64,000 nt of DNA from the NCBI RefSeq assembly GCF_017301735.1, contig NZ_CP071090.1, positions 10,220,001-10,284,000 of the forward strand, read 5' to 3'. Position 1 is the stretch's first letter. Every line of letters begins with the position of its first letter. The notes below the pieces were generated by a model, which saw only the letters and a program-made list of their open reading frames with translations, was not told the origin of the DNA and did no database searches. A program made the translations under genes and the position numbers. The stretch is from Pyxidicoccus parkwaysis (GTDB lineage: Bacteria > Myxococcota > Myxococcia > Myxococcales > Myxococcaceae). Shown here piece after piece: positions 223 through 32,271 of this stretch.

Positions 223-1450
<1,228 letters not shown>

Positions 1451-1454
<4 letters not shown>

Positions 1455-10556: not shown

Positions 10557-12161
10557 TCAGAGCTCCGGGAAGATGAGCAGACCCCGCGACGTGTCAACGA
10601 CGTAGACGTAGCCATCACCGGGCACGCGCATGCCGATGGCGCCGTCATAGAAGAGGTTGCCGCGAATCCGGTCGGTCTCCCGCCAGGTCTGGTAGTAGCC
10701 AATCTCCTTCGGGTGCTTGGGCTTGGACACGTCCAGCACGCGTACGCCGTGCTGGTAGTGCGAGACGTACAGCCGGTCCCCCCGCAGGTCCATGTTGTGG
10801 ATGGAGACGCCCGGCGTGAGGCGGTACTCGCCAATCAGCTCCACGTTCGCCGGGTCGGTGATGTCGAGCACGCGCAGGTGGGCGCCCCAGTCCTCACCGC
10901 CCTCGAAGGCGATGACGCGGCCATCGAAGATGCCCACGCGGTTCGTGTGGCTCGAAGCATGGGGGTACGTGTACTGCCCGAGCTTCACCACGTTGAGCGG
11001 GTCGCTCACGTCGAGGATGAGCAGACCCGCGCGCCAGTGGTTGACGTAGAGCCGGTCGCCCTGCGCGGTGGCGTCGTGGGGGAAGGTGGCGACGGTGGGG
11101 TCGACGCTCGGGTCCTGGTGGCGGTTGAGCAGCACGGGCTGCTTCGCGTTCGTCACGTCGAAGATGAGCGTCTGCGGCGTGGGCGCGGCGGACATCGAGT
11201 AGAGCCGGTTGCCGTCCACGTAGAGCGTGTGCGCGTTGAGGAAGCCATTGCCGGGCAGCGCGCGGAGGAAGGCGGGCTCGGCCGGGTTGGAGATGTCGAA
11301 CACGAGGACGCCGCGCACGCCGCTGGCGACGTAGAGCGCATCGTCCTTGGCCCACACGCCGTTCCAGTAGCTGTCGCCCGGGAAGAAGATGGACTTCACG
11401 AGCCGGGGCGCCGTGCGGTCGCTCAAGTCAAACACATACAGGCCACCGGGCCCCGCGAGCGGGTCCTCGAGCGCAACCACGTACGCGTAGCCGTGGGTGA
11501 CGAAGACATCCGCGGCGATGCCTCGAGGCACGGTGCCCTCGCCGACGAGCGACAGGCCGGAGGAGTCGCCCTCGCTGGGAGGCCGGGAGACCTTCTCCGC
11601 CTCGAAGGTAGCCTGGTACGACGGCCGGCCCGCGAGGCAGCTCACGTAGCACCCCGTCACGCGCTTCGGCCCGCGCGTCTTGCAGCCCACGAAGGACGAG
11701 CGGTACGTGCGCCCGTCCCGCAGTGTCCCGTAGTTGGTGAGGAAGAACGACCCCGAGCCCACGTGCGCCTCGCGCATCGCGTACCCCTCGTAGAAGACGC
11801 GCCCATCCGCCTGGAAGCGGAGGGCCGAGATGGCCTGGTCGTTGTCGTTCTGCAGGATGTTGTCGCCGACGACGTGGAGGGTGAAGGGCCCCTGCGCGTC
11901 CAGTTCGTCCAGGCTCTCGGCGTCACAGGCGGACAGGTCGAAGGACTCCGGAGTGCCGCACTCGGCGGTGGAGCTGCCGTCGGTGATGAGCCTGCACGCG
12001 GCCAGCCGCTCCGGAGCCCAATCTCCGTCGTCCTTCTTCTTGAGCTCCTGCGTGGGGGAAGAATCCGTCGCGGGAGCTTCCACCGGCGCGGAACCACAGC
12101 CCACCAGCGATGCAGCCAATGCCAGCCACGGTGCCCAGGCACCTCGAAACACTGTCTTCAT
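10557..12161 (-). CDS. LVIVD-repeat beta-propeller lipoprotein
   Basis: 534 residues with a lipoprotein signal (MKTVFRGAWAPWLALAASLVGC, lipobox LVGC). The C-terminal two thirds hold at least six copies of an LVIVD-type repeat, for example GLYVFDLSDRTAPRLV, GVLVFDISNPAEPAFL, GLLILDVSDPLNVVKLG, LRVLDITDPANVELIG and VRVLDVSKPKHPKEIG, which build a surface beta-propeller. The N-terminal third is Cys-containing and unassigned. Probably anchored in the outer membrane or exported; binding partner unknown. Its ribosome site is inside a hairpin (separate entry). Confidence 0.88.
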   Translation of the reverse strand: MKTVFRGAWAPWLALAASLVGCGSAPVEAPATDSSPTQELKKKDDGDWAPERLAACRLITDGSSTAECGTPESFDLSACDAESLDELDAQGPFTLHVVGDNILQNDNDQAISALRFQADGRVFYEGYAMREAHVGSGSFFLTNYGTLRDGRTYRSSFVGCKTRGPKRVTGCYVSCLAGRPSYQATFEAEKVSRPPSEGDSSGLSLVGEGTVPRGIAADVFVTHGYAYVVALEDPLAGPGGLYVFDLSDRTAPRLVKSIFFPGDSYWNGVWAKDDALYVASGVRGVLVFDISNPAEPAFLRALPGNGFLNAHTLYVDGNRLYSMSAAPTPQTLIFDVTNAKQPVLLNRHQDPSVDPTVATFPHDATAQGDRLYVNHWRAGLLILDVSDPLNVVKLGQYTYPHASSHTNRVGIFDGRVIAFEGGEDWGAHLRVLDITDPANVELIGEYRLTPGVSIHNMDLRGDRLYVSHYQHGVRVLDVSKPKHPKEIGYYQTWRETDRIRGNLFYDGAIGMRVPGDGYVYVVDTSRGLLIFPEL

Positions 12162-12166
12162 GCGGT

Positions 12167-12201
12167 CCTCTTCAGTTGCTTTTTGACGGCCCCTGAAGAG
12201 G
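12167..12201 (-). promoter_or_regulatory. 5'-leader hairpin masking the ribosome site of the LVIVD gene
   Basis: In the minus-strand transcript CCTCTTCAG (12201-12193) pairs perfectly with CTGAAGAGG (12175-12167) across a 17-nt loop, five nucleotides before the ATG at 12161. The GAGG Shine-Dalgarno lies in the 3' arm, so folding would hide it. This suggests translational control; the function is inferred. Confidence 0.55.
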
Positions 12202-12327
12202 AACGTGAACGCTCGGCCGGCCGAAACATATCGGGAAGTGACTGGATTCGTTGCGCGCAGGAGGCAGTACAGCGTGGAATCGCACCGTCAGCAGCGACGG
12301 CGCGGAGCGGCATCGAGGAGCCAGCAC

Positions 12328-13710
12328 ATGCGAAATGCGGCGCGGAAATTCATCGCGGGTGTGACGGGAATGCTGCTCACGATGTTCCCGCTCCTGGGCA
12401 CGGAGGCCTCCGCCGCGCCGCGCCAGAAGCCACCACGCCCCGCCTCCCTGGAGCAGGAGCTGCTGAGCGCGGTGAGGCAGTCCGGCTTCGACGAGGTGCT
12501 CGACTTCCAACACAACGGCGGGCGCATCGCCCACCCGCCGAACGTGGACGTGGCGCTCCTCGAGCTGGACGCGGACGGGCGTCCCGTCGCGGCGGCCAAC
12601 GTGCTGCTGTCGCGCGACTATCCGAAGGGCGTGACGGTGCCCATCGACCCGAAGACGTGGGGCACGACGGCGGTGCGCTACACGCGCTGGGATTTGGAGC
12701 GGTGGGACGGACAGAAGGACTGGGCCGGAGCCACGGCCGAGGACGACCTGGTGCCGGGACGAGAGAAGGCGCGGCTGCGCTTCATGGCGCCCTACCCCGC
12801 GTCGCTGTTCAAGCTGCTGATTGCCTTTCGGGTGATGAGGCTGGTGGACCGGGGCGTGCTGACGCTGGCGCAGCCGTGGCACTTCATGCGGGAAGCGGTG
12901 GACAGGGGCGAACGTCCGGTGTGGCGGTGGATGGAGCCGATGGTGACGGAGTCGGACAACGGCTCCACCGAGGCGCTGGCGAAGCTGCTGCACGAGAAGG
13001 GCGGAATGGAGGGGCTGAACGCGGAGCTGGCGGAGCTCGGGCTGGGGACGTTGCAGGTGAATGGGACGTCACCGGTGACGGGGCGAAGCTGGAACCCGGG
13101 CAGCATCCACATGACGGCGCTGGACACGGCGAGGTTGCTACTGCTCATCGAGGGCGGGCCGGGAGTGCTGTGGCGCACGCCGTCCGGGCGCGAGGTGACG
13201 GCGGCGGAGCTGTCACAAGCGGCGCGGGTGTACCTGCAATCGCTGTTGGCGGACCAGGCGCTGCATGAAGCGCTGTCGTCGACGGTGTTGTGCGGAGACC
13301 CGAAGGCGGAGCCGGGCATTCCCGCCGCGGTGCCGAGGCGCTGGGTGGACCCGAAGGACGGCACGGTGACGGCGGCGGACACGGCGTTCGGAAGGGACAC
13401 GCGGCCGTGCAACGCGGCGGCGGAGGTGACGTTCCTGCACAAGACGGGGCTGACGGAGAACTACGGGAGCGACGGCGGAATCGTGCGCTCCATGCCGTGG
13501 GCATCACGCCGTCACTACATCGTCGTGTTCCTCTCCAACCTCGGCTACCGCTACTACGACCCGTCGGTGGCGAGCGCCGCGGACCCGTCGAAGGGTGAGG
13601 ACGGCTTCCCCTACGTGAGCACGAAAATCAGCTACACCCAGCGCATCCCCGCACTGGGCCGCCGCATCGACACACTGATGAAGGCCCGCCAGCGTGAGAA
13701 GCACGAGTGA
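12328..13710 (+). CDS. Class A beta-lactamase-fold serine hydrolase, exported
   Basis: 460 residues from an ATG preceded by GAGGAG and followed by a signal peptide (MRNAARKFIAGVTGMLLTMFPLLGTEASA). Three motifs of penicillin-recognising enzymes occur in order: S159-L-F-K162 in YPASLFKLL, S209-D-N211 in TESDNGST, and K372-T-G374 in LHKTGLTENYG. The usual class A omega-loop glutamate (ExxLN) is not evident. It is longer than typical class A enzymes (about 290 residues), with an extra N-terminal region of about 120 residues. It could be a beta-lactamase, a D,D-peptidase-like or an esterase-type enzyme. An upstream in-frame start at 12205 is possible but would bury the signal peptide. Confidence 0.82.
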   Translation: MRNAARKFIAGVTGMLLTMFPLLGTEASAAPRQKPPRPASLEQELLSAVRQSGFDEVLDFQHNGGRIAHPPNVDVALLELDADGRPVAAANVLLSRDYPKGVTVPIDPKTWGTTAVRYTRWDLERWDGQKDWAGATAEDDLVPGREKARLRFMAPYPASLFKLLIAFRVMRLVDRGVLTLAQPWHFMREAVDRGERPVWRWMEPMVTESDNGSTEALAKLLHEKGGMEGLNAELAELGLGTLQVNGTSPVTGRSWNPGSIHMTALDTARLLLLIEGGPGVLWRTPSGREVTAAELSQAARVYLQSLLADQALHEALSSTVLCGDPKAEPGIPAAVPRRWVDPKDGTVTAADTAFGRDTRPCNAAAEVTFLHKTGLTENYGSDGGIVRSMPWASRRHYIVVFLSNLGYRYYDPSVASAADPSKGEDGFPYVSTKISYTQRIPALGRRIDTLMKARQREKHE

Positions 13711-13717
13711 CACGCCC

Positions 13718-14755
13718 TCAAGGCACCAGCACCAGCTTCCCCACCGTCGTCCCCGACTCCAGCGCCTTGTGCGCCTCCGCCACCGCGTCCAGCGGGAAGC
13801 GCGTCACCTGCGGTGACACCAGCTTCCCCTCCTCCACCCAGCCCAACAGCCGCGCCATGGACTCCTCCAGAATCCCGCGCTGCTCGAACAGATAGGACAG
13901 GTTGAACGCGAGCACGCTCATGTTGTCGTTCGTCAACGTGAGCGGGTCGAACCTCGGCGTGCGCAGCCAGTCCCACGCCAGCTTCGCGTAGTTCGGCCTC
14001 CCGCCCGTGCGCGGCAACATCGAGTGGAAGCCGTAGATGACCAGCTTCCCCGGCGACGCCAGGTGCTTGTAGCTGTCACGCAGCGTGGACGGCCCGTTCG
14101 CATCCAGCACCACGTCATATCCACGAGGCGACGCCCGCTCCGCCGCCGCCCACAAGTCCTCGCGGCTCTTGTCGATGACCACGTCCGCCCCCAGCGCCCG
14201 CGCCGCCTCCACCTTGTGAGGCCCGCCCACCACGCCCACCATCCGGCACCCCGCAATCCTCCCCAACTGCAGCAGCGCGCTCCCCACCCCACCCGCCGCC
14301 GAGTGCACCAACACCGTCGACCCCGCCCTCGGGTGCGCCAGCTCGAACAACGCGTAGTACGCCGTGAGGAACACCGCCGGAAACCCCGCCGCCTGCTCCA
14401 TCGTCAACCGCGACGGCAACGCGAACACCTGATGACGCGGCACGGCGACGTGCGTCGAATATCCGCCGAACCGTGTGACGCCGAAGACACGCGTCCCCAC
14501 CGCCAGGTCCGTGACTCCGGCATCCACCGAAACCACCGTTCCTGAGAATTCGAAACCCGGAGTAATCGGCCAGCCGACGAATTCTTTCGCCGAGGCGTAC
14601 AGCCCCATGCGGATGACGCAGTCCGCATAGTTCACGCCAATGGCCTCGGTGGCCACCACGACCTCCCCGGGTCCAGGTGAAACCTGATTCAGGTTTCGCA
14701 GGTGGAGCTGTTCGTACCCACCCGCCTTCTCAATCACGACCTTGCGTGCGCGCAT
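13718..14755 (-). CDS. Medium-chain reductase, VAT-1/quinone oxidoreductase-like
   Basis: 345 residues starting MRARKVVIEKAGGYEQL. GroES-like domain (GVNYADCVIRMGLYA, PGFEFSGTVVSVDAGV, FGVTRFGGYSTHVAVP) then a Rossmann domain (VLVHSAAGGVGSALLQLGRIAGCRMVGVVG). No structural or catalytic zinc ligands are seen, as expected for the zinc-independent quinone oxidoreductase branch. The segment NYAKLAWDWLRTPRFDPL followed by NMSVLAFNLSYLFEQ matches the VAT-1-like subgroup. It should be an NADPH-dependent reductase of an unknown enone or quinone. Convergent with the beta-lactamase-fold gene (7 bp apart) and divergent from the lipase. Confidence 0.88.
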   Translation of the reverse strand: MRARKVVIEKAGGYEQLHLRNLNQVSPGPGEVVVATEAIGVNYADCVIRMGLYASAKEFVGWPITPGFEFSGTVVSVDAGVTDLAVGTRVFGVTRFGGYSTHVAVPRHQVFALPSRLTMEQAAGFPAVFLTAYYALFELAHPRAGSTVLVHSAAGGVGSALLQLGRIAGCRMVGVVGGPHKVEAARALGADVVIDKSREDLWAAAERASPRGYDVVLDANGPSTLRDSYKHLASPGKLVIYGFHSMLPRTGGRPNYAKLAWDWLRTPRFDPLTLTNDNMSVLAFNLSYLFEQRGILEESMARLLGWVEEGKLVSPQVTRFPLDAVAEAHKALESGTTVGKLVLVP

Positions 14756-14823
14756 GCACACGTGAGTATCACGCGACGCAACGCGACAACGTGTTTCACG
14801 GCCATTCGGCTGACGACGTGTGC

Positions 14824-14847
14824 ATGAACAGTCATTAGACTGTTCAT
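14824..14847. promoter_or_regulatory. Perfect 24-bp inverted repeat (10-bp arms)
   Basis: ATGAACAGTC (14824-14833) and GACTGTTCAT (14838-14847) are exact reverse complements around ATTA. The site lies about midway between the start codons of the divergent reductase (14755) and lipase (14906) genes and is AT-richer than its surroundings. It has the form of a dimeric repressor or activator operator. Confidence 0.6.
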
Positions 14848-14905
14848 CGCGCTCGAGGACGTTTCGTTCCGCGCGCACTTCCAAAACACATCGAAGGAGA
14901 AGTCC

Positions 14906-15940
14906 ATGCGTCTGCGGCATTCGCTCTATCTCGCGGGCACGCTGCTGCTCGGTTCCATCACCGGCTGCGGCGAGGGCGTCGAGCCCGAGTCCTCCCCCGA
15001 GACTCCCTCGGTCGAAGCGCCCGCGGGCGAGCAACTCGGCACCGCGGAGTCCGCGGCGTCCACCACCGGCATCACCTCGCACTTCCGCACCTGGCTCTCC
15101 GCCAACGGCTACGACAGCTACGACTTCGCGCGCGCGGACCTGTCCGGCGGCAGCTACGGCGGCAAGGCCAGCAGCACGGACACCGTGGTGAACCAGCCCG
15201 TCATCTTCATCCACGGCAACTCGGACAAGGCCATTGGCACGGGCACCGCGGGCCAGACGGGATGGACGGCCTCCGTCGATTACTTCCTGTCCAAGGGCTA
15301 CAAGACGAGCGAGCTGTACGCCACGACGTGGGGCCCGGCCAGCGCGACGATGTCCGCGTACCAGTACCACTCGAAGGCGAACGTGATGAAGGTGCGCAAG
15401 TTCATCGAGGCGGTGCTCAAGTACACCGGCGCCTCCAAGGTGGACATCGTCACCCACTCCATGGGCGTGACGCTCACGCGCAAGGCCATCCTCGGCGGCA
15501 CCGCCAATGACTCGGCGGATGGCGGCGACTACAACGTGGGCTCGCCGCTCACGGGCTCGGTGGACACCTTCGTCGGCATCGCCGGCGCCAACCTGGGCCT
15601 CACGTCCTGCTACCAGACGGGCCCCACCACGCCCACCTGCGGCTCCACCAACGGCCTGTACCCGGGCTACCTGTACTTCGGCTTCGTGACGGGCCGCTCG
15701 GCGTACCTCAACAACCTCATGTCCACGAGCGGCTACGAGGGCACGTACCGCTACACCATCTACTCCACGGCGGACGAAGTCATCGGCTACGGAGGCATCG
15801 TCTACGGTGACTACACCTCCCGCATCCCCGGCCAGACGGGCGAGAAGGTGTACTCGGCGTACCCGTACGGGCACTTCAACTCGAAGGACCTGACGGCGGA
15901 CGTGCAGTACAACATGGTGCGCAACCACACCATCCCGTAG
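14906..15940 (+). CDS. Secreted lipase/esterase lipoprotein (Lipase_2-like alpha/beta hydrolase)
   Basis: 344 residues, ATG preceded by GAAGGAGAAG. The signal peptide ends in a lipobox (LLGSITGC). Oxyanion segment VVNQPVIFIHGNSDKA and nucleophile elbow VDIVTHSMGVTLTRKAI identify an alpha/beta hydrolase of the Lipase_2/EstB type; a C-terminal His (YPYGHFNSKDLT) is the likely third catalytic residue and an Asp in the segment STADEVIGYG the acid. It is probably outer-membrane anchored or exported. Convergent on the next gene, from which it is separated by palindromes. Confidence 0.85.
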   Translation: MRLRHSLYLAGTLLLGSITGCGEGVEPESSPETPSVEAPAGEQLGTAESAASTTGITSHFRTWLSANGYDSYDFARADLSGGSYGGKASSTDTVVNQPVIFIHGNSDKAIGTGTAGQTGWTASVDYFLSKGYKTSELYATTWGPASATMSAYQYHSKANVMKVRKFIEAVLKYTGASKVDIVTHSMGVTLTRKAILGGTANDSADGGDYNVGSPLTGSVDTFVGIAGANLGLTSCYQTGPTTPTCGSTNGLYPGYLYFGFVTGRSAYLNNLMSTSGYEGTYRYTIYSTADEVIGYGGIVYGDYTSRIPGQTGEKVYSAYPYGHFNSKDLTADVQYNMVRNHTIP

Positions 15941-15957
15941 CCCCCTGAGCGGGCCGC

Positions 15958-16004
15958 GCCGACATGTCGGAACCCGAAGCGACTGTGGGTACCGACACGT
16001 CGGC
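15958..16004. terminator. Paired palindromes between convergent lipase and hydrolase genes
   Basis: CCGACATGTCGG (15959-15970) is a perfect 12-bp palindrome and CCGACACGTCGG (15992-16003) a near copy. The two also pair with each other as one 13-bp stem with a single mismatch (G-U in the minus-strand RNA) and a 21-nt loop. It lies in the 168-bp gap between converging genes, so a bidirectional terminator is likely; a protein-binding pair of sites is possible. Confidence 0.45.
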
Positions 16005-16108
16005 CGGCGACGCGAAGTCCCGAGAGCGGCGTGCCCCGGAGCAACCTCGCGGAACGAGGCTGCACGCGCGACGCGAAGCTGGGCTCACGGCTTCAATGAC
16101 TCACGGCT

Positions 16109-17293
16109 TCACGGATGCGGAGCATTCGCGGGAGCCGGCTCACCCTCCTTGCTCGGCGTGGGCGGAGGCAACGACTGCGGCGCCGGCGTTCCAGACGGGG
16201 CGACTCCCGGCTTCGGAGCCTTCTCCTTCGGCGGCGTGCCCTCGGGCACAACCACCTGCCCCTGCTCCACGGCACGAACGAAGGACAGCGCCGCCTCGTT
16301 GAAGCGCTCGGGGCAGTCGAGCTGCAGCGTGTGGCCGCAGCCCTTCAGCGGCACCAGCTTCGCGCCGGGGATGCGCGAGGCACCGTACTCCATGATGTCG
16401 CGCGTCTCGCCGCCATGGAGGAACGGGTTGGGGATGAGCCGGTCATCCGTGCCGTAGACGATGAGCGTGGGCACGGTGATGTGGTGCAGGTTGTCGCGCA
16501 CGAAGTCGTTGTGCGCCAGGCCCTTCACCGTGCGGACGTTGGCGTAGGCGTACGCGTCGAACTCGGGCGACCTCGACACGCGCACTCGCTCCTCAATCAG
16601 CCACTCCAGCCCGGGCCGCCAGTGCATGAAGTTGCCCTGACGCACGCTGCCCCAGATGGCGTACTCCGGCGCGGCCTTGATGAACTCCGTGCTCATCACC
16701 CGCTCGAACCAGGCCTTCTCCTTCCAGGAGAACTTCTCGAAGCCGGCGGGTGACACCAGCACCAGCGCGCTCAGCGCATCCGGGTAGCGGATGGCGTAGG
16801 ACAGCGACGTCTGCCCGCCCATGGAGTGGCCGGCCAGAATCGGCTTGTCCACCTGCAGCGTGTCCACCAACTCGCGCACCACGTCGGCCATGGCCTCCAT
16901 GGTGTACGGGAAGGTGCCCGGCTTGTCGGACTTGCCATAGCCCGGCAGGTCCACCGCGATGACGCGGAAGCCCTGCTGGTGGAAGGCGTCCAGCTGCGAG
17001 CGCCAGAACTTCAGGTACGAGCCGAGGCCGTGGATGAAGACCACCGTCTTCGCGTCCGGCGACGCGGCGGGCATGTCCACGTAGGCCACCTCGGGGACGG
17101 TGGGCATGCCGTACTGCGCGGCGGTGCGAGGCACCGGCAGCCGCTTCACGGGCCAGGGCTCTTTCGTACCCTCGGAGGAGTAGTCGAAGTCCTGGAAGGA
17201 GAGGGCGGACTCGGTCGCGTACGAGCGCACGCAGCCGGAGGAGGACAGCCCCGCCGCGAGGAGCAGGGCGGTGAAGGCGCGGGAGGAGCTCAT
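16109..17293 (-). CDS. Alpha/beta-hydrolase lipoprotein
   Basis: 394 residues starting MSSSRAFTALLLAAGLSSSGC with a lipobox (SSGC). Alpha/beta-hydrolase motifs: oxyanion TVVFIHGLGSYLKFW, VIAVDLPGYGKSDKP, nucleophile elbow ILAGHSMGGQTSLSYA, acid in VYGTDDRLIP and catalytic His in KGCGHTLQLD. A Pro/Lys-rich tail of about 45 residues follows the fold. The ATG is 2 bp after the stop of the outer-membrane protein gene, so they are co-expressed. Likely a surface or periplasmic esterase/lipase acting with that barrel; substrate unknown. Confidence 0.88.
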   Translation of the reverse strand: MSSSRAFTALLLAAGLSSSGCVRSYATESALSFQDFDYSSEGTKEPWPVKRLPVPRTAAQYGMPTVPEVAYVDMPAASPDAKTVVFIHGLGSYLKFWRSQLDAFHQQGFRVIAVDLPGYGKSDKPGTFPYTMEAMADVVRELVDTLQVDKPILAGHSMGGQTSLSYAIRYPDALSALVLVSPAGFEKFSWKEKAWFERVMSTEFIKAAPEYAIWGSVRQGNFMHWRPGLEWLIEERVRVSRSPEFDAYAYANVRTVKGLAHNDFVRDNLHHITVPTLIVYGTDDRLIPNPFLHGGETRDIMEYGASRIPGAKLVPLKGCGHTLQLDCPERFNEAALSFVRAVEQGQVVVPEGTPPKEKAPKPGVAPSGTPAPQSLPPPTPSKEGEPAPANAPHP

Positions 17294-17295
17294 GG

Positions 17296-18954
17296 TCAGA
17301 ACGCGTACCAGGTGAAGGTGGTGAAGGCCGCCCACGGGTCGCTCGTCACGGTGGGAGCGCCGTCGTAGAAGCTGCCGCGGAAGAGGTAGCCGGTGTGCAG
17401 GCCCACCGTCATGAGGTAGCGGATGGTGTAGCGCAGCTCCGCGTTCACCTCGGCGCCGATGAAGCGCCCGCGCGGCACGTCCGGATTCCACCGCGTCGGC
17501 GAGGCGCCCGCGTTGGCGATGCCCGTGCCCAGCTTGAGGTTGAGCTTGTTGGGGATGATGTCCCACGCCGCCGTGGCCATGCCGGCGCGCAGACCGAAGC
17601 CCTGGTTGGAGATGTCCGACACCGCGCCCGCGTAGTTGTTCACCGTGCTGGTGAAGGGGAACAGCAGCAGCATCTTGTGGTTGAACCACACCGCGCCGGG
17701 GATGCCGTACTGGTTCATCGTGAAGGCGCCGGTGTAGTGGTCATCCTGCACGTTGTTGTCGCCGGTGGTGAACATGCCCTCCAGCGTCACCACGTCCGCG
17801 GGCCCGCGGCCCCACTGGTACATCAGCTCCGCGTTGGCGGAGAGGCCGGAGATGCTGAGCTTGTCCAGCACCGACGTGTCCGGGGCGGCGCTCTTGTACT
17901 CGCCGCCGTTGTAGATGACGAAGCCGGACGCACCGAGCCGGCCGTTGCGGAAGTCGATGTTGTGATTGAAGTGCGCGCCCACCCAGAACACCTCGCCGGT
18001 GGGACGCTCAATCGGGAAGCGCGCGGTGCCCACGAAGCCGGGGAGGCCGGTGGAGGACGGGCCGCTCTTCACCAGGCCCTCGTACGCGTACGCATCGCCC
18101 TTGGTGTTGTCGTTGAGGTACCAGAACGACAGACCCACGTTGGTGTTGGGGCGGACGGGGTAGACGTAGTCCGCCATGGCCAGCCAGATGTACTTCAGCC
18201 GCGGGTCGTTCTTCTCCGCGCGGTCCGACTGCGCGCTGCCCAGCGGCAGCAGCGTCAGGCGCGCCTGGCCCTTGAGGTAGTTGCTGAAGACGGACAGGCC
18301 GGTGGCGTCACTGCCGAGGAAGGCCAGCTTGTAGCCGGTGCGGATGATGTCCGACAGCGGCGTGCGCGTCGGGTCCAGCGGGGTGTCGTAGACGGGCTGC
18401 GTGCCGACGAGCAGCGTGAGCTGCGCGGGAATGCGCGTGGGGTAGATGGCGACGTTGACGTTCTTCGTCTGGATGTTGACCTGGTCGGCGTTGAAGCCGC
18501 CGCCCTCGTTCTGGCCCAGCGCGTTGGCCGCGCGGCCCCACATGAAGTCGATTTCGAACTGCGCGCGGAACGACGCCAGCCCGTCCACGAAGTAGGGGCT
18601 GTATTCGATGACGGGAATCCAGCGCTGCTCGACGAAGTACGCCGTGCGTCCCGGAGTCACGCTCACCGCGCTGCCCGAGGGCGAGCCGATGGGGCCCAGC
18701 GCCACACCGCGCAGGCCGGCCGGGTCACCCACCTGGTTCGTCAGCGACAGGCGCGTAAAGAAGTAGTTGATGAGCGTGAACTCGCGAGGCTTCGCATCCT
18801 CCTCACGGTCCTTCTCCTCGAGCCAGTCGCCGTAATAGAGGCCGGGAACCGGCGTGCTCTGCGCGGCCGCCGGCAGTGCCAATCCCGCGAGGCCCAGCGC
18901 CAGCGCCACCGCGCAGCGCCGCATCGCGCGTGCTTCAAGCCACCTTCCCGTCAT
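17296..18954 (-). CDS. Predicted outer-membrane beta-barrel protein
   Basis: 552 residues from an ATG preceded by GAGGTGG (MTGRWLEARAMRRC); a shorter start at 18924 is possible. Signal peptide ALALGLAGLALPAAAQS. The mature protein shows alternating hydrophobic/polar strands, is rich in Tyr, Phe, Asn and Gly, and ends in WAAFTTFTWYAF, a C-terminal aromatic strand typical of barrels inserted by BamA. No family was recognised. It lies between a lipoprotein gene and a lipoprotein hydrolase on the same strand, and downstream of ketosynthase-like and acyl-CoA ligase genes; a role as a lipid or hydrophobic-compound channel is inference. Confidence 0.72.
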   Translation of the reverse strand: MTGRWLEARAMRRCAVALALGLAGLALPAAAQSTPVPGLYYGDWLEEKDREEDAKPREFTLINYFFTRLSLTNQVGDPAGLRGVALGPIGSPSGSAVSVTPGRTAYFVEQRWIPVIEYSPYFVDGLASFRAQFEIDFMWGRAANALGQNEGGGFNADQVNIQTKNVNVAIYPTRIPAQLTLLVGTQPVYDTPLDPTRTPLSDIIRTGYKLAFLGSDATGLSVFSNYLKGQARLTLLPLGSAQSDRAEKNDPRLKYIWLAMADYVYPVRPNTNVGLSFWYLNDNTKGDAYAYEGLVKSGPSSTGLPGFVGTARFPIERPTGEVFWVGAHFNHNIDFRNGRLGASGFVIYNGGEYKSAAPDTSVLDKLSISGLSANAELMYQWGRGPADVVTLEGMFTTGDNNVQDDHYTGAFTMNQYGIPGAVWFNHKMLLLFPFTSTVNNYAGAVSDISNQGFGLRAGMATAAWDIIPNKLNLKLGTGIANAGASPTRWNPDVPRGRFIGAEVNAELRYTIRYLMTVGLHTGYLFRGSFYDGAPTVTSDPWAAFTTFTWYAF

Positions 18955-19135
18955 ATCCACCTCGGCCCCGAGCGAGGGGCGCCCCGGGCTCACCGGGCTC
19001 AGATGTCGTCGTTCGTGTTGCGGATGCGTGCCTCAAGGCCCATCACGCCTCGCCAGGAGGAGGGGACGGGCGACGAGGCTGTTGCCGTGCTCCGTGCTTC
19101 GACAGCCACCGGGAAGTCCCGGCCCGTCTCCGGAA

Positions 19136-19179: not shown

Positions 19180-19809
19180 CTACTGGATGACGTACGCCTG
19201 CACCGCCTTGCCGGCGAACGGCTTGCCGTTCAGGGTAATCGTCCCGTCGGCGCCGACAGCGCCCGTGGCGCAGCGAGCGCCGGAGGACTGGCCCTTGAAG
19301 AAGATTTCCAGCTTCAGCTGCTTGTGGTCCGCCGAGAAGCCGCCGCGGCCTTCCTGCACGAGGCCGCCCGGGTAGTTGAACGTCACGTCGAAGCAGCTGC
19401 CGTCGGCCGCGATGTTCTCCATGACGACGGAGGTGGAGTTGAAGGCCAGCGGGTTCTTCGCCAGGTCGTGGTTGCAGGTGCCGCCCGGCTGGCCCACGCC
19501 CGGCGAGTTCTCGATGGTGCCCGGGATGCTGTTCACCGAGAAGGTGCCGGCGGCCACCGTCATGGTGACGCTCTTGTAGCACTGCGTGGCGTTACCGTAG
19601 TCGATGTCCTCGTCATAGCCGTTCGGGTGGCTGGGGATGTTGGTCCCGCTCATCACCAGCGTCTTGCCGTCGAGGAAGGCGAGGATGTTGGCCTGGGTGT
19701 CCAGCTTGGGGGTGGTGTCGGGCGGGTCGATGACTTCCTTGTCGTCACCACAGCCCACCACGAGGCCCAGCGTGCACAGCATCACCGCGGACAGCAGCTT
19801 CTTCTTCAT
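19180..19809 (-). CDS. Predicted lipoprotein of unknown function
   Basis: 209 residues with a clear lipoprotein signal (MKKKLLSAVMLCTLGLVVGC, lipobox VVGC) followed by a short acidic/Pro linker (GDDKEVIDPPDTTP). The mature domain has five Cys residues after the lipid Cys (in NATQCYKSV, GGTCNHDLA, GSCFDVTFN and ARCATGAVG) and a strand-rich pattern, suggesting a disulphide-stabilised beta domain. The ATG has GGAGC eight bases upstream. No family recognised. Codirectional with the acyl-CoA ligase (100 bp upstream) and the barrel gene, so it is taken as part of the same locus. Confidence 0.75.
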   Translation of the reverse strand: MKKKLLSAVMLCTLGLVVGCGDDKEVIDPPDTTPKLDTQANILAFLDGKTLVMSGTNIPSHPNGYDEDIDYGNATQCYKSVTMTVAAGTFSVNSIPGTIENSPGVGQPGGTCNHDLAKNPLAFNSTSVVMENIAADGSCFDVTFNYPGGLVQEGRGGFSADHKQLKLEIFFKGQSSGARCATGAVGADGTITLNGKPFAGKAVQAYVIQ

Positions 19810-19826
19810 GGGGTTGCTCCTGTTTG

Positions 19827-19845
19827 CCCGGCGGGACTCGCCGGG
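19827..19845 (-). terminator. Intercistronic hairpin before the lipoprotein gene
   Basis: CCCGGCG (19827-19833) and CGCCGGG (19839-19845) form a 7-bp stem with a 5-nt loop, just upstream of the ribosome site of the lipoprotein gene at 19809. Could be a partial terminator after the acyl-CoA ligase or an mRNA-stabilising element. Confidence 0.4.
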
Positions 19846-19909
19846 ATGACACGACAGTTGGCGGGTGAGGGCCGACAGCGCGGGGCCCTCGCGGGAATTC
19901 ACGGCTGCT

Positions 19910-21463
19910 TCAGCGGCCTTCGCGGTCCGCGGCGATGGCTGCGTCGCGCAGCTCGCGCTTGAGAATCTTCCCCGCCGCGGAAATCGGCAGGCGCTCCACC
20001 ACGTCCACCCGCTTGGGCACCTTGAAGCGCGCCACGCGGCCGCGCAGGTGCTCCAGCAGCGCCTCGGAAGAGGCCTGCTCTCCCGGCTTCAGCACCACGA
20101 AGGCCCGGCCAACCTCGCCCCACTTCGCGTCGGGCACGCCCACCACCGCGCACTGGTGCACGGCGGGGTGCTCGTAGAGGGCGCCCTCCAGCTCCAGCGG
20201 GTACACGTTCTCTCCGCCGGAGATGAACATGTCCTTCTTGCGGCCGGCGATGAAGAAGAAGCCGTCCTCGTCCTTGCGCGCGAGGTCTCCGGTGTGCAGC
20301 CAGCCGTCCGCGTCGATGGCCTCGCGCGTGGCGGCCTCGTCCTCGAAGTAGCCCGAGCACATGGACGGGCCCTTGAGCAGCAGCTCGCCCACCTCGCCCA
20401 CCGGTACCTCGCGGCCGTCGTCGTCGACGAGCTTCGCGGCGATGAAGTAGTTGGGCCGGCCGATGGAGCCCGCCTTGGACACGGCGAACTCGGGGCCCAT
20501 GCTGAAGAGGCCGGGGCCGAACTCCGTCATGCCGAAGCCCTGCTTGAAGGGCACCGGGTGCACGGCCTGCCACGCCTGGATGAGGGGCACCGGCAGCGCC
20601 GCGCCGCCGCTCGTCATGAAGCGCACGCTGGAGAAGCTGGTGGACTTGAAGCGCGGCGACTCCTGGAGCTGCTGGTACTGAGTGGGCACCGCGAAGAAGA
20701 GCGTCACCTTCTCGCGGGGAATCAGGTCCAGCAGCGCCTCCGGGTCCCACCGGCGCATGATGACGACGGTGCCGCCCACGGTGAGCAGCGGCACCGTGTA
20801 CACGAGCAGTCCGCCCGTGTGGAACATGGGCGTGTGCGTCACCGTGACGTCGCCGGGGAGCACCTCGTGCACCAGCGTGTTGAGCGTGTTCCACGCCACC
20901 ATGCGGTAGCTGATGCGCGCGCCCTTCGAGCGGCCCGTGGTGCCGCCGGTGAAGAGCAGGCAGAGGATGTCCTCCTCCGCCACGGCGTCGTTCTTCACGG
21001 GAGCCGCGGGCACGTGAGAAAGCGCCGTCGCGTACGCATCCGCGCCGGGCAGTCCCTGCGGCTCCAGCGCCACGAGGCGTAGGGAGTCGCCGATGCGCTC
21101 GCGCACCTGGGCCACGCCGTCGCGGAAGTCGTCACCGAAGAGGAGCACGCGCGGGCGGATGTCGCGGACCAGGTCCGTCAGCTCGGCGGCGTGCAGGCGC
21201 CAGTTGTAGGGGACGAAAATGGCGCCAATCTTCCCGCAGGCGAACAGCGCGTCGAGGTACTCCACGCCGTTGTGGGCCACGAGCCCCACGCGGTCTCCGC
21301 GCTTCACGCCGGCGACGTCGCGCAGCCAGCCGCCCAGGGCCTCGGCGCGTGCGTTGAGGGCGCGGTAGGTGAAGCGGCCCGCGTCACCCTTCGCCGTGTC
21401 CACCACGGCCACGTGCTCCGGCCAGTAGAGGGCGCCCCGGCCCATCCAGTCTCCGATGAACAT
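19910..21463 (-). CDS. AMP-dependent acyl-CoA synthetase/ligase
   Basis: 517 residues starting MFIGDWMGRGALYWPEHVAVV, with a GGGGAGGGGAC ribosome site. Complete adenylation motifs: LLFTGGTTGRSKGARISYR, GFGMTEFGPG, GWLHTGDLARKDEDG, GRKKDMFISGGENVYPLELE and the terminal lysine context LPISAAGKILKREL. It is about 45 percent alike by eye to the ligase at 8745-10262 but in a different context: 26 bp downstream of the FabH-like gene and under a TetR gene. Presumably supplies or consumes an acyl thioester for that partner. Confidence 0.9.
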   Translation of the reverse strand: MFIGDWMGRGALYWPEHVAVVDTAKGDAGRFTYRALNARAEALGGWLRDVAGVKRGDRVGLVAHNGVEYLDALFACGKIGAIFVPYNWRLHAAELTDLVRDIRPRVLLFGDDFRDGVAQVRERIGDSLRLVALEPQGLPGADAYATALSHVPAAPVKNDAVAEEDILCLLFTGGTTGRSKGARISYRMVAWNTLNTLVHEVLPGDVTVTHTPMFHTGGLLVYTVPLLTVGGTVVIMRRWDPEALLDLIPREKVTLFFAVPTQYQQLQESPRFKSTSFSSVRFMTSGGAALPVPLIQAWQAVHPVPFKQGFGMTEFGPGLFSMGPEFAVSKAGSIGRPNYFIAAKLVDDDGREVPVGEVGELLLKGPSMCSGYFEDEAATREAIDADGWLHTGDLARKDEDGFFFIAGRKKDMFISGGENVYPLELEGALYEHPAVHQCAVVGVPDAKWGEVGRAFVVLKPGEQASSEALLEHLRGRVARFKVPKRVDVVERLPISAAGKILKRELRDAAIAADREGR

Positions 21464-21489: not shown

Positions 21490-22485
21490 TCAGGCAGTCC
21501 AGCGATAGAGGGCGGAGGCCATGGCGAGGCCGCCGCCGCTGGCACAGAAGGCCACCAAATCCCCACGCCGCACCTTGCCCTGCACCACCGCGTCGTCGAG
21601 CGTCATCGGGATGCAGGCCGAGCCCGTGTAGCCCCACTTGTCCATCGTGTAGTGGGCCTTCTCCATGGGCTGGTTGAGCGCCTTCATGGTGGCCTCAATC
21701 GTGCGCAGGTTGAGCTGGGTGAAGACGAAGAGCTTCACGTCATCCAGCGTCTGGTTCTGCCGCTTGAGGAGCTGGTCCAGCAGCATGGGCCAGCGCTCGG
21801 TGTTGAAGGTCGCGGGGAACTTGCGGACGAACTGCACCGCGGGCTTGCCGTTGGTGAGCTGGAGGGACTCGGCGGTGGCGGGGCGGCTGGTGCCGCCGGT
21901 GTAGATGCCGAGCGCGTCGTGGTACTCGCCGTTGGCCAGCAGCTTCGCGCCCATGAAGCCGGGCTTCTCGCCCGCGCCCAGCACCACCGCGCCCGCGCCG
22001 TCCGCGAACAGGGTGCAGGTCTTCTTGTCCTTCCAGTTCACATAGCGCGTCATGCCGTACGCGCCGACCACGAGGATGCGGCGGTAGCTGTCATCCGCGG
22101 CGATGGTCTTCGAGCCCACGTCGAGCGCCGTCACCCACCCGGCGCACGCGCAGTTGAGGTCATACGTGCCGGCGTTGGGCGCGCCCAGCTTGGCCTGCAC
22201 CACGGACGAGGTGGCCGGGCTGAGGTAGTCCGGCGTGTCGGTGGCGACGATGATGAGGTCCAGCTCCTCCGGCTTCGTGCCGGAGCGCTCCAGCGCCTGG
22301 CGGGCCGCGGCGACGCACAGGTCGCTCGTGGCCTGGTCGTCCGCCATGACGTGGCGCTCCTTGATGCCCACGTTCTGTTGCAGCCACTCGTCCACCTTCT
22401 CGCCGAGGATGTTCTCGATGTCGGCGTTGGTGAGGACCTTCTCGGGGACGTAGCGGCCGGTGGACAGAATCTGGGCGTATCGCAT
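21490..22485 (-). CDS. FabH-like ketosynthase III with altered active site
   Basis: 331 residues, normal length for KASIII. Thiolase-fold landmarks are intact: ILSTGRYVPEKVLTN at the start, the nucleophile Cys114 in NCACAGW, FADGAGAVVLG, and the C-terminal GDLVAFCASGGGLAMASALYRW. The FabH triad is not: the HQANxR box reads TQLNLR (Thr256 for His) and the YGNTS box reads WGYTGS (Tyr286 for Asn). Family membership is clear, decarboxylative condensation is not. It could be an acyltransferase, a hydrolase or a diverged condensing enzyme. It lies between a TetR regulator (12 bp) and an acyl-CoA ligase (26 bp), so all three are one transcript. Confidence 0.85.
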   Translation of the reverse strand: MRYAQILSTGRYVPEKVLTNADIENILGEKVDEWLQQNVGIKERHVMADDQATSDLCVAAARQALERSGTKPEELDLIIVATDTPDYLSPATSSVVQAKLGAPNAGTYDLNCACAGWVTALDVGSKTIAADDSYRRILVVGAYGMTRYVNWKDKKTCTLFADGAGAVVLGAGEKPGFMGAKLLANGEYHDALGIYTGGTSRPATAESLQLTNGKPAVQFVRKFPATFNTERWPMLLDQLLKRQNQTLDDVKLFVFTQLNLRTIEATMKALNQPMEKAHYTMDKWGYTGSACIPMTLDDAVVQGKVRRGDLVAFCASGGGLAMASALYRWTA

Positions 22486-22497
22486 GGCGGGTGTTCT

Positions 22498-23211
22498 TCA
22501 GCTCCGGGCGCCGCGCGCGGGACGGCGCGTGGGGCGCAGGGTGTTCTTCTTCGGTTTCTTCGAGGCGGCGGCCGCCTTCAGCGTGTTGCGCGCGGCGGGA
22601 GGACGGGTGTCGATGCCGTGCTGGATGAGGCCCATGGCGGTGTCGAGCACGCGCTCCAGGCCCGGGTCCTCCTCCCACAGCACCCAGCGCATGCCGAGGA
22701 AGTCGCCGATGCCCATGAGGCAGTAGGCGAGCGCCTCCGGGTCCATGCGGCGCACCTCGCCCTCCTCCATGGCGCGGGTGAGGCCGCTGACGTAGCCCTT
22801 GGCGAAGCGGTCGTAGTAGCGGCGGTAGCAGGCGGCGTCGACGAACTCGGCCTGGCGCACCACGCGGTAGAGGTTGGGGTGCTGGCGGACGAACTCGAAG
22901 AAGGTGCGCAGGCCCTCGCGCTCGACTTCCACGCGGCTGTCGCAGGAGGAGGTGGACTCGGCGATGAGGCGGCGCAGGCGCGTGCCGAGCTCGTCCACCA
23001 CTTCGACGAAGATGGACTGCTTGTCCGGGAAGTAGACGTAGAAGGTGCCCAGCGCGACGCCGCCCTTGCGGGTGATGTCTGCGATGGAGGCACGCTCATA
23101 ACCCTTCTCTCCGAAGACCGACTCCGCGGCCTTCAGCAGCTTCGCGCGGGTCCGTTGCCCCCTGGGCGTCACGGGCCCGGCGCGGTCTGGAGAAGTTGAA
23201 GGGCGATTCAT
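22498..23211 (-). CDS. TetR-family transcriptional regulator
   Basis: 237 residues. The N-terminal helix-turn-helix region RTRAKLLKAAESVFGEKGYERASIADITRKGGVALGTFYVYFPDKQSIFVEVV is a canonical TetR domain. The all-helical ligand domain contains aromatic and Cys residues (RQAEFVDAACYRRYYDRF) as in fatty-acid-responsive members. A basic Lys/Arg/Ala-rich tail (about 30 residues) is unusual for TetR proteins. First gene of the ketosynthase-ligase run, so it probably autoregulates that operon and senses an acyl compound; the ligand is inference. Confidence 0.92.
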   Translation of the reverse strand: MNRPSTSPDRAGPVTPRGQRTRAKLLKAAESVFGEKGYERASIADITRKGGVALGTFYVYFPDKQSIFVEVVDELGTRLRRLIAESTSSCDSRVEVEREGLRTFFEFVRQHPNLYRVVRQAEFVDAACYRRYYDRFAKGYVSGLTRAMEEGEVRRMDPEALAYCLMGIGDFLGMRWVLWEEDPGLERVLDTAMGLIQHGIDTRPPAARNTLKAAAASKKPKKNTLRPTRRPARGARS

Positions 23212-23251
23212 GTTTCACCTAGCGGTAACACCCGGTTGATGGGCTTGTCAA
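23212..23251 (-). promoter_or_regulatory. Candidate promoter and operator of the TetR operon
   Basis: On the minus strand TTGACA (23251-23246) is followed after 17 nt by TTACCG (23228-23223), a good -35 with a weak -10. Overlapping the -10 is an imperfect inverted repeat, GTTACC-GCTA-GGTGAAAC, immediately before the ATG, a suitable position for TetR autorepression. Confidence 0.4.
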
Positions 23252-23327
23252 AGCGCGGGACATGGCTCCGCGCGTCATGGAGAAGGCCGACGCGGAGCGT
23301 CACCTGTCCCCCCATTGGAATTGAGAC

Positions 23328-30910: not shown

Positions 30911-31513
30911 ATGATTCAGTTCAGCGACCGGGAAATCACAGGCGAACGGCTGGAGCTCGATAGCAAGACCGAGCTCTATTACCTGGGGCATCACCTGACC
31001 CTGAGGAACTGCACCCTCATCCTGAAGGTGCCCGCACGAGCGCTGGTGGTCAGCAGGACACAACTCATCGACTGCACCATCGAGGCCAGGAAGGAGTTGA
31101 AGGGCTACCGCTGGCACGGTGCCATTCTGAAGGGCTGTCGATTCTCGGGAGCCTTCAGCGGCTGCGAGTTCGGCCGCTGGCCCTACACCCGCGAACCCGA
31201 ATTCGGCGGCATCGAGGACTGCGACTTCACGGATGCCCGGCTGGAGGCGTGCACCTTCGCGGGCTGCGATGCCCGCACCCTGAAGTTCCCATCCTGGCCC
31301 TGCTTCACCATCCTCGACCCAGTGGGCCGTAAGCACGAGCTCCTCTCCATTCAGTGGCCCGGCACCATGCGCATCACCGTTGAGTCGTTCGTCGAGTGCC
31401 CACCGGAGACTGCGGCCGTGACGTACTTCGCCCCTGCCGTGGCGAAGCGCACCGGAACCACTCCGGAAGCCATCCGCGCCGTCCTCGACACCCTCCCCGG
31501 TGTCATCCTCTGA
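30911..31513 (+). CDS. Putative SitI-type immunity protein, pentapeptide-like, copy 1
   Basis: 200 residues starting MIQFSDREITGERLELDSKTELYYLGHHLTL. The centre has a loose pentapeptide-repeat-like beta-helix (LRNCTLIL, LIDCTIEA, LKGCRFSG, FSGCEFG, IEDCDFTDARLEACTFAGCDART). The C-terminus ends AAVTYFAPAVAKRTGTTPEAIRAVLDTLPGVIL. No signal peptide, so cytoplasmic, as expected for immunity against an imported toxin. It starts 22 bp after the toxin stop, the position of sitI genes. Immunity function is inferred from position. Confidence 0.75.
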   Translation: MIQFSDREITGERLELDSKTELYYLGHHLTLRNCTLILKVPARALVVSRTQLIDCTIEARKELKGYRWHGAILKGCRFSGAFSGCEFGRWPYTREPEFGGIEDCDFTDARLEACTFAGCDARTLKFPSWPCFTILDPVGRKHELLSIQWPGTMRITVESFVECPPETAAVTYFAPAVAKRTGTTPEAIRAVLDTLPGVIL

Positions 31514-31668
31514 CGTCACACCCGCACTCGAGGACCCTCTTTACCGTTCCGCTTTGGTGAGGAGACGTAGACCGTGCCGGTACGTATGGCGCATATGGGA
31601 GACAGGGGCTCACTCATCATCCTCACCCCAGGATGCTCACCTTCCAAGCCCACCAAGCGCGGAACCTC

Positions 31669-32271
31669 GTGATTCAATTCAGCGACACGACCATCGAAGA
31701 CGAGCGTCTGAAGCTGGATAGCAATGAGCATCTCTACTACCTGGGTCACCATCTGACCTTGAGACGATGTCATCTCATCATCAAGGTCCCCAGACGGGCG
31801 TTGGTGATTTTCCGGACGCAGCTCATCGACTGCACCATCGACGTCAAGAAGGAGCTCAAGGGCTTCCGCTGGGAGGGCGTCATCCTGAAGGGATGTCAGT
31901 TCAGCGGCGCGATGACCGGCAATGACTTTGGCCGTTGGCCCTACGCTGAACAACCTGAGCTTGGCAGCATCGAGGACTGCGACTTCACCAATGCACGCCT
32001 GGATGCATGCCGCTTCATCAACTGCGACCTCAGTCGCGTGAAGCTCCCTTCCTGGCCTTGCTTCAGCATTCTTTCCCCAGCAGGCCGCAAGAATGAGCTC
32101 CTCGCCCACCAGTGGCCCGGCACCATGCACATCACCGTGGATGCGTTCACGGAGGGCCCAGCGGAGACCGCCGCCGTGACCTACTTCGCCCCCGCCGTTG
32201 CGAAGCGCAACGACACCACCCCGGAAGCCATCCGCGCCGTCCTCGACACCCTCCCCGGTGTCATCCTCTGA
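31669..32271 (+). CDS. Putative immunity protein, copy 2 (tandem paralogue)
   Basis: 200 residues if it begins at GTG 31669 (VIQFSDTTIEDERLKLDS), which reproduces the start and exact length of copy 1; an in-frame ATG at 31633 would add 12 residues not found in copy 1. It is clearly homologous over the whole length (LYYLGHHLTLRRCHLIIKVPRRALV versus LYYLGHHLTLRNCTLILKVPARALV) and the last 33 residues and 3' flank are nearly identical in DNA. It arose by duplication of the immunity gene; it may protect against a different toxin allele or be an orphan immunity gene. Confidence 0.78.
   Translation: MIQFSDTTIEDERLKLDSNEHLYYLGHHLTLRRCHLIIKVPRRALVIFRTQLIDCTIDVKKELKGFRWEGVILKGCQFSGAMTGNDFGRWPYAEQPELGSIEDCDFTNARLDACRFINCDLSRVKLPSWPCFSILSPAGRKNELLAHQWPGTMHITVDAFTEGPAETAAVTYFAPAVAKRNDTTPEAIRAVLDTLPGVIL

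Follow-up and report, generated by a model that had tools for sequence, protein, structure and literature searches.

A conserved family of FabH-like proteins in the Myxococcota with Cys, Thr and Tyr in place of the Cys-His-Asn triad

The window analysed here, a stretch of 64,000 nucleotides of the Pyxidicoccus parkwaysis genome (NZ_CP071090.1, positions 10,220,001 to 10,284,000), encodes a KAS III-like protein in which the Cys-His-Asn triad of FabH and KAS III is absent and residues 114, 256 and 286 read Cys, Thr and Tyr (C-T-Y). Proteins of this kind form a conserved side-branch of the FabH-like enzymes, in which the cysteine is kept and both of its partner residues are replaced. That the gene product works as FabH does is very unlikely; its chemistry is probably different and directed at acids that enter the cell from its surroundings.

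A KAS III-like protein with a changed active site

The open reading frame at 21490-22485, on the minus strand, starts with ATG and encodes 331 amino acids. In an alignment with E. coli FabH (NC_000913), Cys112, His244 and Asn274, given as the catalytic residues of that enzyme in PMC4807248, fall on Cys114, Thr256 and Tyr286 of the window protein, and HMMER alignments to the PDB FabHs 4ryb, 2ebd, 8vd9 and 1ub7 agree on the placement of Thr256 and Tyr286. A preliminary description of this DNA had seen a KAS III that keeps Cys114 and carries Thr and Tyr for His and Asn, and both the residues and the E. coli alignment bear it out. The gene and the codons discussed below are as follows.

21490..22485, minus strand: KAS III-like protein, 331 amino acids, C-T-Y variant (ORF, Pfam, NCBIfam, alignment)
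22237..22239, minus strand: codon of Asp83, invariant in the family and aligned with the catalytic Glu of HMG-CoA synthase (alignment)
22144..22146, minus strand: codon of Cys114, the nucleophile, E. coli FabH Cys112 (alignment; position counted from the ATG at 22485)
21802..21804, minus strand: codon of Asn228, invariant in the family, Ala in FabH (alignment)
21718..21720, minus strand: codon of Thr256, E. coli FabH His244 (alignment)
21628..21630, minus strand: codon of Tyr286, E. coli FabH Asn274 (alignment)
21538..21540, minus strand: codon of Ser316, E. coli FabH Phe304, Thr in the relative L088 (alignment)

The same genome also encodes a FabH of the ordinary Cys-His-Asn type (L002/L080). 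A further KAS III paralogue in it (L003, G000:C1:11023294-11024238) appears to have Ser at the Asn position, in an uncertain alignment at 26% identity.

The window protein is predicted to take the KAS III (FabH) fold over its full length, in keeping with the earlier claim of an intact fold. An AlphaFold2 model built from a 19-row alignment has a pLDDT of 87.7 and a pTM of 0.89, with residues 197-202 below 50; its best Foldseek match is the FabH 4ryb (TM 0.91, 35% identity), and VIA-align gives a Z of 47.6 over 316-318 residues, again with FabHs as the best matches. Pfam recognizes ACP_syn_III and ACP_syn_III_C. Among the NCBIfam models, the protein scores above the cut-off of PRK09352 (beta-ketoacyl-ACP synthase 3; 289.6 against 249), as does the relative L076 (266.0), and this cut-off is missed by two deep members of the family, L087 (205.5) and L088 (214.8). 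It falls below that of the fabH model TIGR00747 (254.2 against 292.1), as do three distant members (189.6, 186.8 and 214.2). Three HMG-CoA synthase models place it far below their cut-offs (TIGR01835, 35.2 against 360.35; TIGR00748, 38.8 against 353.35; PRK04262, 70.6 against 244), and it is also below those of the thiolase model TIGR01930 (22.0 against 240.55) and of PRK09258 (97.5 against 285), which we take to be the model covering OleA.

Residue contrasts between 17 C-T-Y and 12 Cys-His-Asn rows, and then between 15 and 8 rows including deep members, pick out further positions that are specific to the C-T-Y proteins. Relative to E. coli FabH these are Asp83 (Thr81), Met145 (Leu142), Leu/Val258 (Ala246), Gly288 (Ser276) and Ser316 (Phe304), together with Asn228, which is Ala in FabH; the position held by Ser316 is presumably the Phe/Ile gate of FabH. 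The equivalents of R36 and R151 are other than Arg in the C-T-Y rows of the 15-versus-8 comparison, and that of R249 is still Arg (R261) in the clade around the window but lost in the four deep members L087, L088, L089 and L106 (P, D, T and G); we assume that these three positions belong to the CoA/ACP surface of E. coli FabH and that R249 is the ACP site. A ten-row family alignment contains no invariant His, His278 being present at 90% or more. The 'paired loss' of the preliminary description thus holds for His and Asn but understates the change, since Asp83, Met145, Asn228, Gly288 and Ser316 differ from the FabHs as well. Because these further positions are changed together with His and Asn, canonical malonyl decarboxylation by C-T-Y enzymes appears unlikely.

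Asp83, which the alignment places near Cys114, is aligned with the Glu of the VGTETG motif in an HMG-CoA synthase (MvaS)-like protein of the same genome (L108). According to the excerpted text of PMC6392133, Cys114 and Glu82 of archaeal HMG-CoA synthase are both needed for its Claisen-type condensation, and PhlA has neither equivalent. Taken with the loss of His and Asn, the alignment of Asp83 therefore suggests that the decarboxylation set has been lost and that an acid stands where HMG-CoA synthase has its base. The comparison proposed earlier, with FabH, OleA and CerJ-type enzymes, does place Thr and Tyr through its FabH member, but HMG-CoA synthase belongs in it too, because Asp83 aligns with its catalytic Glu.

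Distribution and conservation of the family

A search of 61 genomes with the window protein gave a match at E 1e-60 or better, either C-T-Y or FabH, in 51. A ten-row family profile (A3) was run on 195 Myxococcota genomes and matched 82 of them at an E of 1e-88 or below. In 75 of these 82 the top match has 497.5-600.9 bits, bar G163 (365 bits, ending at a contig edge); a contig-cut match in G110 lies within the group at 521.9 bits. Matches of the FabH type stay at or below 312 bits and are the sole kind in 7 of the 82. All 75 family members were read, and Cys114, Thr256, Gln257, Tyr286, Asp83, Met145, Asn228 and Gly288 are each present in 75/75; Ser316 is found in 73 of the 74 members covering the position, with Thr in L088, and L133 stops short of the site. 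Orthologues were expected to share Thr and Tyr, and in all 75 genomes having a family member they do; a return to His and Asn was looked for among the same members and none was found. The occurrence of C-T-Y in 75/75 genomes rules out a sequencing error or a quirk of one strain.

A scan of genome contigs with the window protein yielded 37 loci, partly from the same genomes as the 75. The 26 loci with an identity of at least 82% all read C/T/Y and show the same fixed residues, with Ser316 in 25 (L057 is cut), and none of the 11 at 38% or less is C/T/Y; in two of the latter, L068 and L069, the tblastn alignment is gapped at 256 and has Asn at 286. C/H/N was also read in each of seven relatives from outside the group (L077, L078, L099, L103, L104, L135 and L136), which are about 38-42% identical. 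The most distant members within the Myxococcota come from other families of the phylum (L087, 44%; L088, 41%; L089, partial, 49%). The range beyond the Myxococcota was covered by one contig scan, with the window protein as sole query, and by a tblastn search of plasmids with L087. The plasmid search matched 383 records, and among the 40 matches listed L106, on the Chloroflexota plasmid CP069395.1, is a C-T-Y member at 59% identity carrying all of the family-fixed residues including Asp83; the other 39 are at 33% identity or less. One record titled Comamonas sp. KCTC 72670 (L047, BNCN01000009.1) holds a 93% identical copy on a 427-kb contig with a Myxococcus-like gene order, and probably comes from a myxobacterial assembly with the wrong label.

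In a tree of 38 rows, 22 C-T-Y rows are split from the Cys-His-Asn FabHs by a branch with 100/100 support, and the C-T-Y state therefore needs one change on the tree. An earlier tree of 45 rows, which included the long-branch paralogues L003-L005 and L087b, gave this split only 55/45; the 38 rows are these 45 minus L003-L005, L087b, L066, L068 and L069. The preliminary description had argued against decay, and the window gene is indeed under purifying selection, with dN/dS of 0.14-0.26 against six orthologues. These six comparisons, the open frame and the fixation of the replaced residues rule out a pseudogene.

The operon and its neighbourhood

An acyl-CoA ligase in the same operon had been part of the earlier argument, and the ligase gene does lie on the same strand, 26 bp downstream of the KAS III stop. 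The neighbours of the KAS III gene, including sequence elements upstream of the regulator gene, are listed here.

14906..15940, plus strand: class-2 lipase or PhaZ7-like protein, on the strand opposite the operon and a conserved neighbour in some family members (Pfam Lipase_2, 203 bits)
16109..17299, minus strand: alpha/beta-hydrolase read as a lipoprotein (Pfam Abhydrolase_1, 117.5 bits); MXAN_0220 by gene order
17296..18993, minus strand: 565-residue protein read as an outer-membrane beta-barrel, no Pfam match; MXAN_0219 by gene order
19180..19902, minus strand: apparent lipoprotein that matches no Pfam or NCBIfam model, probable ATG near 19809 (conserved neighbour)
19910..21463, minus strand: acyl-CoA ligase of the AMP-binding type, with its ATG at 21463, 26 bp beyond the KAS III stop (Pfam, NCBIfam, junction)
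22498..23211, minus strand: TetR-family regulator, ending 12 bp before the KAS III start (Pfam TetR_N, 49.5 bits; conserved neighbour)
23246-23252: TTTGACA element upstream of tetR
23263-23277: second TGACGC half-site upstream of tetR
23288..23302, minus strand: candidate operator, imperfect inverted repeat TGACGC-N3-GCGTCG, upstream of tetR

Among NCBIfam models, the ligase scores highest with one for long-chain acyl-CoA ligases (450.9, short of the cut-off of 476). The setting among TetR and ligase genes is unlike that of E. coli fabH, which is flanked by plsX and fabD (NC_000913). The lipase on the opposite strand scores 103 bits with NF050060, below the cut-off of 450; this weak match to a PhaZ7-type extracellular PHA depolymerase is a possible hint at the substrate. 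Elsewhere in the window, the adjoining and related ORFs at 30911-31513 and 31633-32271 (200 and 212 amino acids) read as tandem paralogues.

Across the 26 C-T-Y loci of the contig scan, a TetR gene lies upstream in 23 (the sequences of L045, L051 and L054 end too near the gene) and the ligase downstream in 25 (L057 is cut inside the KAS gene), and the adjacency to TetR is very constant outside the deep members. The block of lipoprotein, barrel and alpha/beta-hydrolase is present in 16 of the 26, and within the stretch fetched it is absent from all eight named Corallococcus loci. When the barrel was searched for in six genomes, G000, G005 and G101 were positive, the G101 copy lying a long way from the KAS gene; G111 gave a 23-residue match only and G112 and G117 none, and an obligate role for this uptake block is ruled out by the barrel missing in some of these genomes. 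In L073, L075 and L095-L097 the KAS gene is not immediately followed by the ligase, and in L076 and L090 the 1.4 kb that come after the KAS gene showed no ligase.

Apparent MFS carriers are encoded downstream of the ligase or the KAS gene at seven of nine loci inspected (L044, L046, L091, L092, L095, L096 and L097). Those of L044, where the MFS start overlaps the ligase stop, and L095 match Pfam MFS_1, the other five being assigned by reading; below the NCBIfam cut-offs, sialate H+ symporters score best for these two and aromatic-acid symporters lower. The window genome has only weak matches to the carrier, of at most 58.5 bits. Among the deep members, L088 has the order KAS, alpha/beta hydrolase, ligase, and L089 the order KAS, sodium:solute symporter, ligase. 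The L106 locus (11176-17174), on a cold-seep Chloroflexota plasmid, encodes a FabG-like reductase, the C-T-Y KAS, a CoA-transferase, a thiolase, a DUF35 protein (zinc-ribbon/OB, ChsH2), an alpha/beta hydrolase and an ABC transporter; the myxobacterial operons examined showed neither a thiolase nor a DUF35 partner. A TetR gene was not seen at L088, L089 (just 9 bases upstream) or L106. At L087, no ligase homologue was found in 16 kb downstream or 2 kb upstream (L134), and a second, very divergent KAS III-like gene (756-1952, minus strand; motifs RCCSQ and YGHIGQ) divergently adjoins the C-T-Y gene; this gene, too, seems not to encode the Cys-His-Asn set. Except at L087, the neighbourhoods share a theme, in which transport or hydrolysis is combined with CoA activation of a carboxylic acid.

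Judging by conservation, the inverted repeat upstream of tetR may be an operator: TGACGC-N3-GCGT occurs in 19 and TTTGAC in all of 22 regions upstream of tetR. With one mismatch allowed, the window contains the pattern about as often as expected by chance (2 found, 2.44 expected), and it is on conservation that the candidate is put forward.

Counterparts in Myxococcus xanthus

The FabH-like MXAN_0215 and the acyl-CoA ligase MXAN_0216 of M. xanthus are reported as upregulated during predation in the excerpted text of PMC9548883. The same text, citing Curtis 2001 and Bode 2006a, states that disruption of MXAN_0215 leaves lipid composition unaffected, suggests a role in starter-unit specificity and iso-fatty acids, and counts MXAN_0220 among the hydrolytic enzymes located in OMVs. 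MXAN0219 appears as an outer-membrane beta-barrel in an LC-MS/MS listing in PMC3222651, and neighbouring MXAN locus tags turn up in PMC8570273, PMC3222651 and PMC9548883. Among the open-licence papers searched, a single one mentions MXAN_0215 itself. The order FabH-like protein, ligase, barrel, hydrolase is common to the window, to L105 and to the MXAN genes as reported, and because of this shared order and the kinds of gene involved we infer that MXAN_0215-0220 is the orthologous locus. If MXAN_0215 is an orthologue, the C-T-Y reading would explain why lipids are unchanged on its disruption.

Possible reactions

We tentatively propose, as a reading that is quite possible if short of probable, that the C-T-Y protein is a non-decarboxylating acyl-Cys enzyme acting on a CoA-activated imported carboxylate, with a C-C bond made or broken by means of Asp83 as acid/base. 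An exogenous carboxylate would be freed by a secreted esterase or lipase, imported through the beta-barrel (plus an MFS carrier in relatives) and turned into acyl-CoA by the ligase. The acyl group would then be loaded onto Cys114, with backbone amides as the oxyanion hole, and the hydroxyls of Thr256 and Tyr286, replacing His and Asn, would hold the carbonyl of a second thioester; Asp83 would act as the acid/base, like the Glu of HMG-CoA synthase, in a reaction of the Claisen/aldol or retro-Claisen type that proceeds without decarboxylation. Counted in favour of this proposal is a CoA-forming enzyme together with a hydrolase or transporter near three of the four deep members (L088, L089 and L106). 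Against it, HMG-CoA synthase also uses a catalytic His, which is absent here, the HMG-CoA synthase models score far below cut-off, and the ligase is missing at some loci. According to the excerpt of PMC4807248, the PqsC variant H269A is octanoylated at 76.6 per s, versus 86.9 per s, and loss of the His therefore need not stop acyl loading; Tyr-based C-C cleavage within the thiolase fold is described for Ltp2 and Sal in the available part of PMC12329534. The wider claim, that the C-T-Y proteins are a distinct class of the thiolase superfamily with a His-free Cys/Asp/Tyr set and non-decarboxylating C-C chemistry on acyl-CoA, by which myxobacteria assimilate acids derived from prey esters and which the family models file with FabH, we regard as rather unlikely.

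A second view, somewhat less probable, is that the protein is purely an acyltransferase which, like KS0 (a non-elongating ketosynthase domain) or ChlB3, passes an acyl group from ligase-made acyl-CoA via Cys114 to an ACP, thiol, hydroxyl or amine; in the myxobacterial clade it could serve as an acyl-CoA:ACP shunt for scavenged acids. The residues for malonyl decarboxylation are gone and the Cys is kept in 75/75, as an acyltransferase would have it, and the assumed ACP-site residue R249 is kept as R261 around the window but lost in the four deep members. Acyl loading in the related PqsC without need of its His (PMC4807248, in excerpt) and the existence of KAS III-fold acyltransferases (PMC9573744, in excerpt) agree with such a role; the invariant Asp83 and Tyr286, however, would be superfluous for thioester exchange, and an alignment lacking an invariant His provides no CerJ/ChlB3 triad. 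The genome also encodes a PlsB-like acyltransferase (401.3 bits, below the cut-off of 618.5); acyl-CoA may therefore be used directly, without conversion to acyl-ACP, which counts against the shunt and leaves the argument that a converter is needed a weak one. Our slight preference is for C-C chemistry over plain acyl transfer: a new base would not be required to exchange thioesters, and L106 is accompanied by a thiolase and a DUF35 protein.

Less likely than either are a supporting role and ordinary FabH activity. That the protein is non-catalytic, an acyl-CoA-binding protein or a partner subunit like PqsB, or PhlA in PhlACB, which might for instance feed the TetR switch, would suit the constant TetR adjacency outside the deep members, and the excerpted texts describe PhlA as a KAS III-fold subunit without the key residues (PMC6392133) and PqsB as without the triad (PMC4807248). 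We consider it improbable, as Cys114 is invariant, unlike in PhlA (Gly115), and the replaced positions are fixed to single residues with no sign of drift. It seems quite improbable that the protein is an ordinary FabH-type condensing enzyme that uses other starter units and tolerates its changes: the PRK09352 scores above cut-off and the FabHs as best PDB matches speak for it, but the protein retains none of His, Asn and the Phe/Ile gate, TIGR00747 is not reached, L087 and L088 fall below both models, a normal Cys-His-Asn FabH is present in the same genome, and disruption of MXAN_0215 is reported to bring no lipid change, as cited in PMC9548883.

If its departure from FabH function is confirmed, the protein would offer a His-free active site that evolved naturally in the best-studied fold of condensing enzymes, as well as a defined starting point for how predatory myxobacteria use prey-derived acids. 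The gene is present in 75 of the 195 Myxococcota genomes searched, where it is matched by a general FabH-type model.

Comparison with known systems

The window protein resembles FabH in its full-length predicted fold (TM 0.91 and 35% identity to 4ryb) and nucleophilic Cys, but differs in His244 to Thr, Asn274 to Tyr, Phe304 to Ser, Thr81 to Asp, Ser276 to Gly and Ala246 to Leu/Val, and in its TetR/ligase operon, where E. coli fabH lies among fab genes. OleA has the Cys-His-Asn set, from which the C-T-Y triad differs, and the PRK09258 score (97.5 against 285) is in line with this. The OleABCD olefin system, with KAS III, alpha/beta hydrolase and AMP-ligase genes as in L088, was considered and rejected on the differing triad and on the window ligase scoring best with the long-chain acyl-CoA ligase model (450.9, cut-off 476).

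KAS III folds with an altered triad are already known from PqsC, CerJ/ChlB3 and PhlA; in the open-licence literature on such enzymes we came across no description of a Cys-Thr-Tyr set that had gained an Asp. PqsC, of PqsBC, is likewise a KAS III with a partly replaced triad (Val for Asn) and a Cys acylated from acyl-CoA, but keeps its His and forms a heterodimer with PqsB, according to the excerpt of PMC4807248. CerJ and ChlB3 share the KAS III fold and the kept Cys, and no decarboxylative condensation is expected of either these or the C-T-Y proteins. Theirs is a Cys-His-Asp triad (PMC9573744, in excerpt), for which the C-T-Y family has no invariant His in the ten-row alignment, and a CerJ/ChlB3-type acyltransferase was rejected on this ground, with ChlB3 set apart by its description.

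Bacterial and archaeal HMG-CoA synthases have, by alignment, a Cys and an acidic residue at the positions of Cys114 and Asp83, and the L106 C-T-Y gene with its thiolase and DUF35 genes makes up the same trio as the archaeal thiolase/HMGCS complex. The C-T-Y proteins differ from these synthases in having no catalytic His, in Asp for Glu, in a sequence much nearer to FabH, and in scoring below cut-off with all three of the synthase models that gave a match. Ltp2 and Sal, also of the thiolase superfamily, belong to the SCP2-thiolase branch and not to KAS III, and Sal pairs with a DUF35 partner; in both, according to the available text of PMC12329534, a Tyr took over the catalysis of C-C cleavage, and it is by role that Tyr286 may be likened to Tyr344 of Ltp2.
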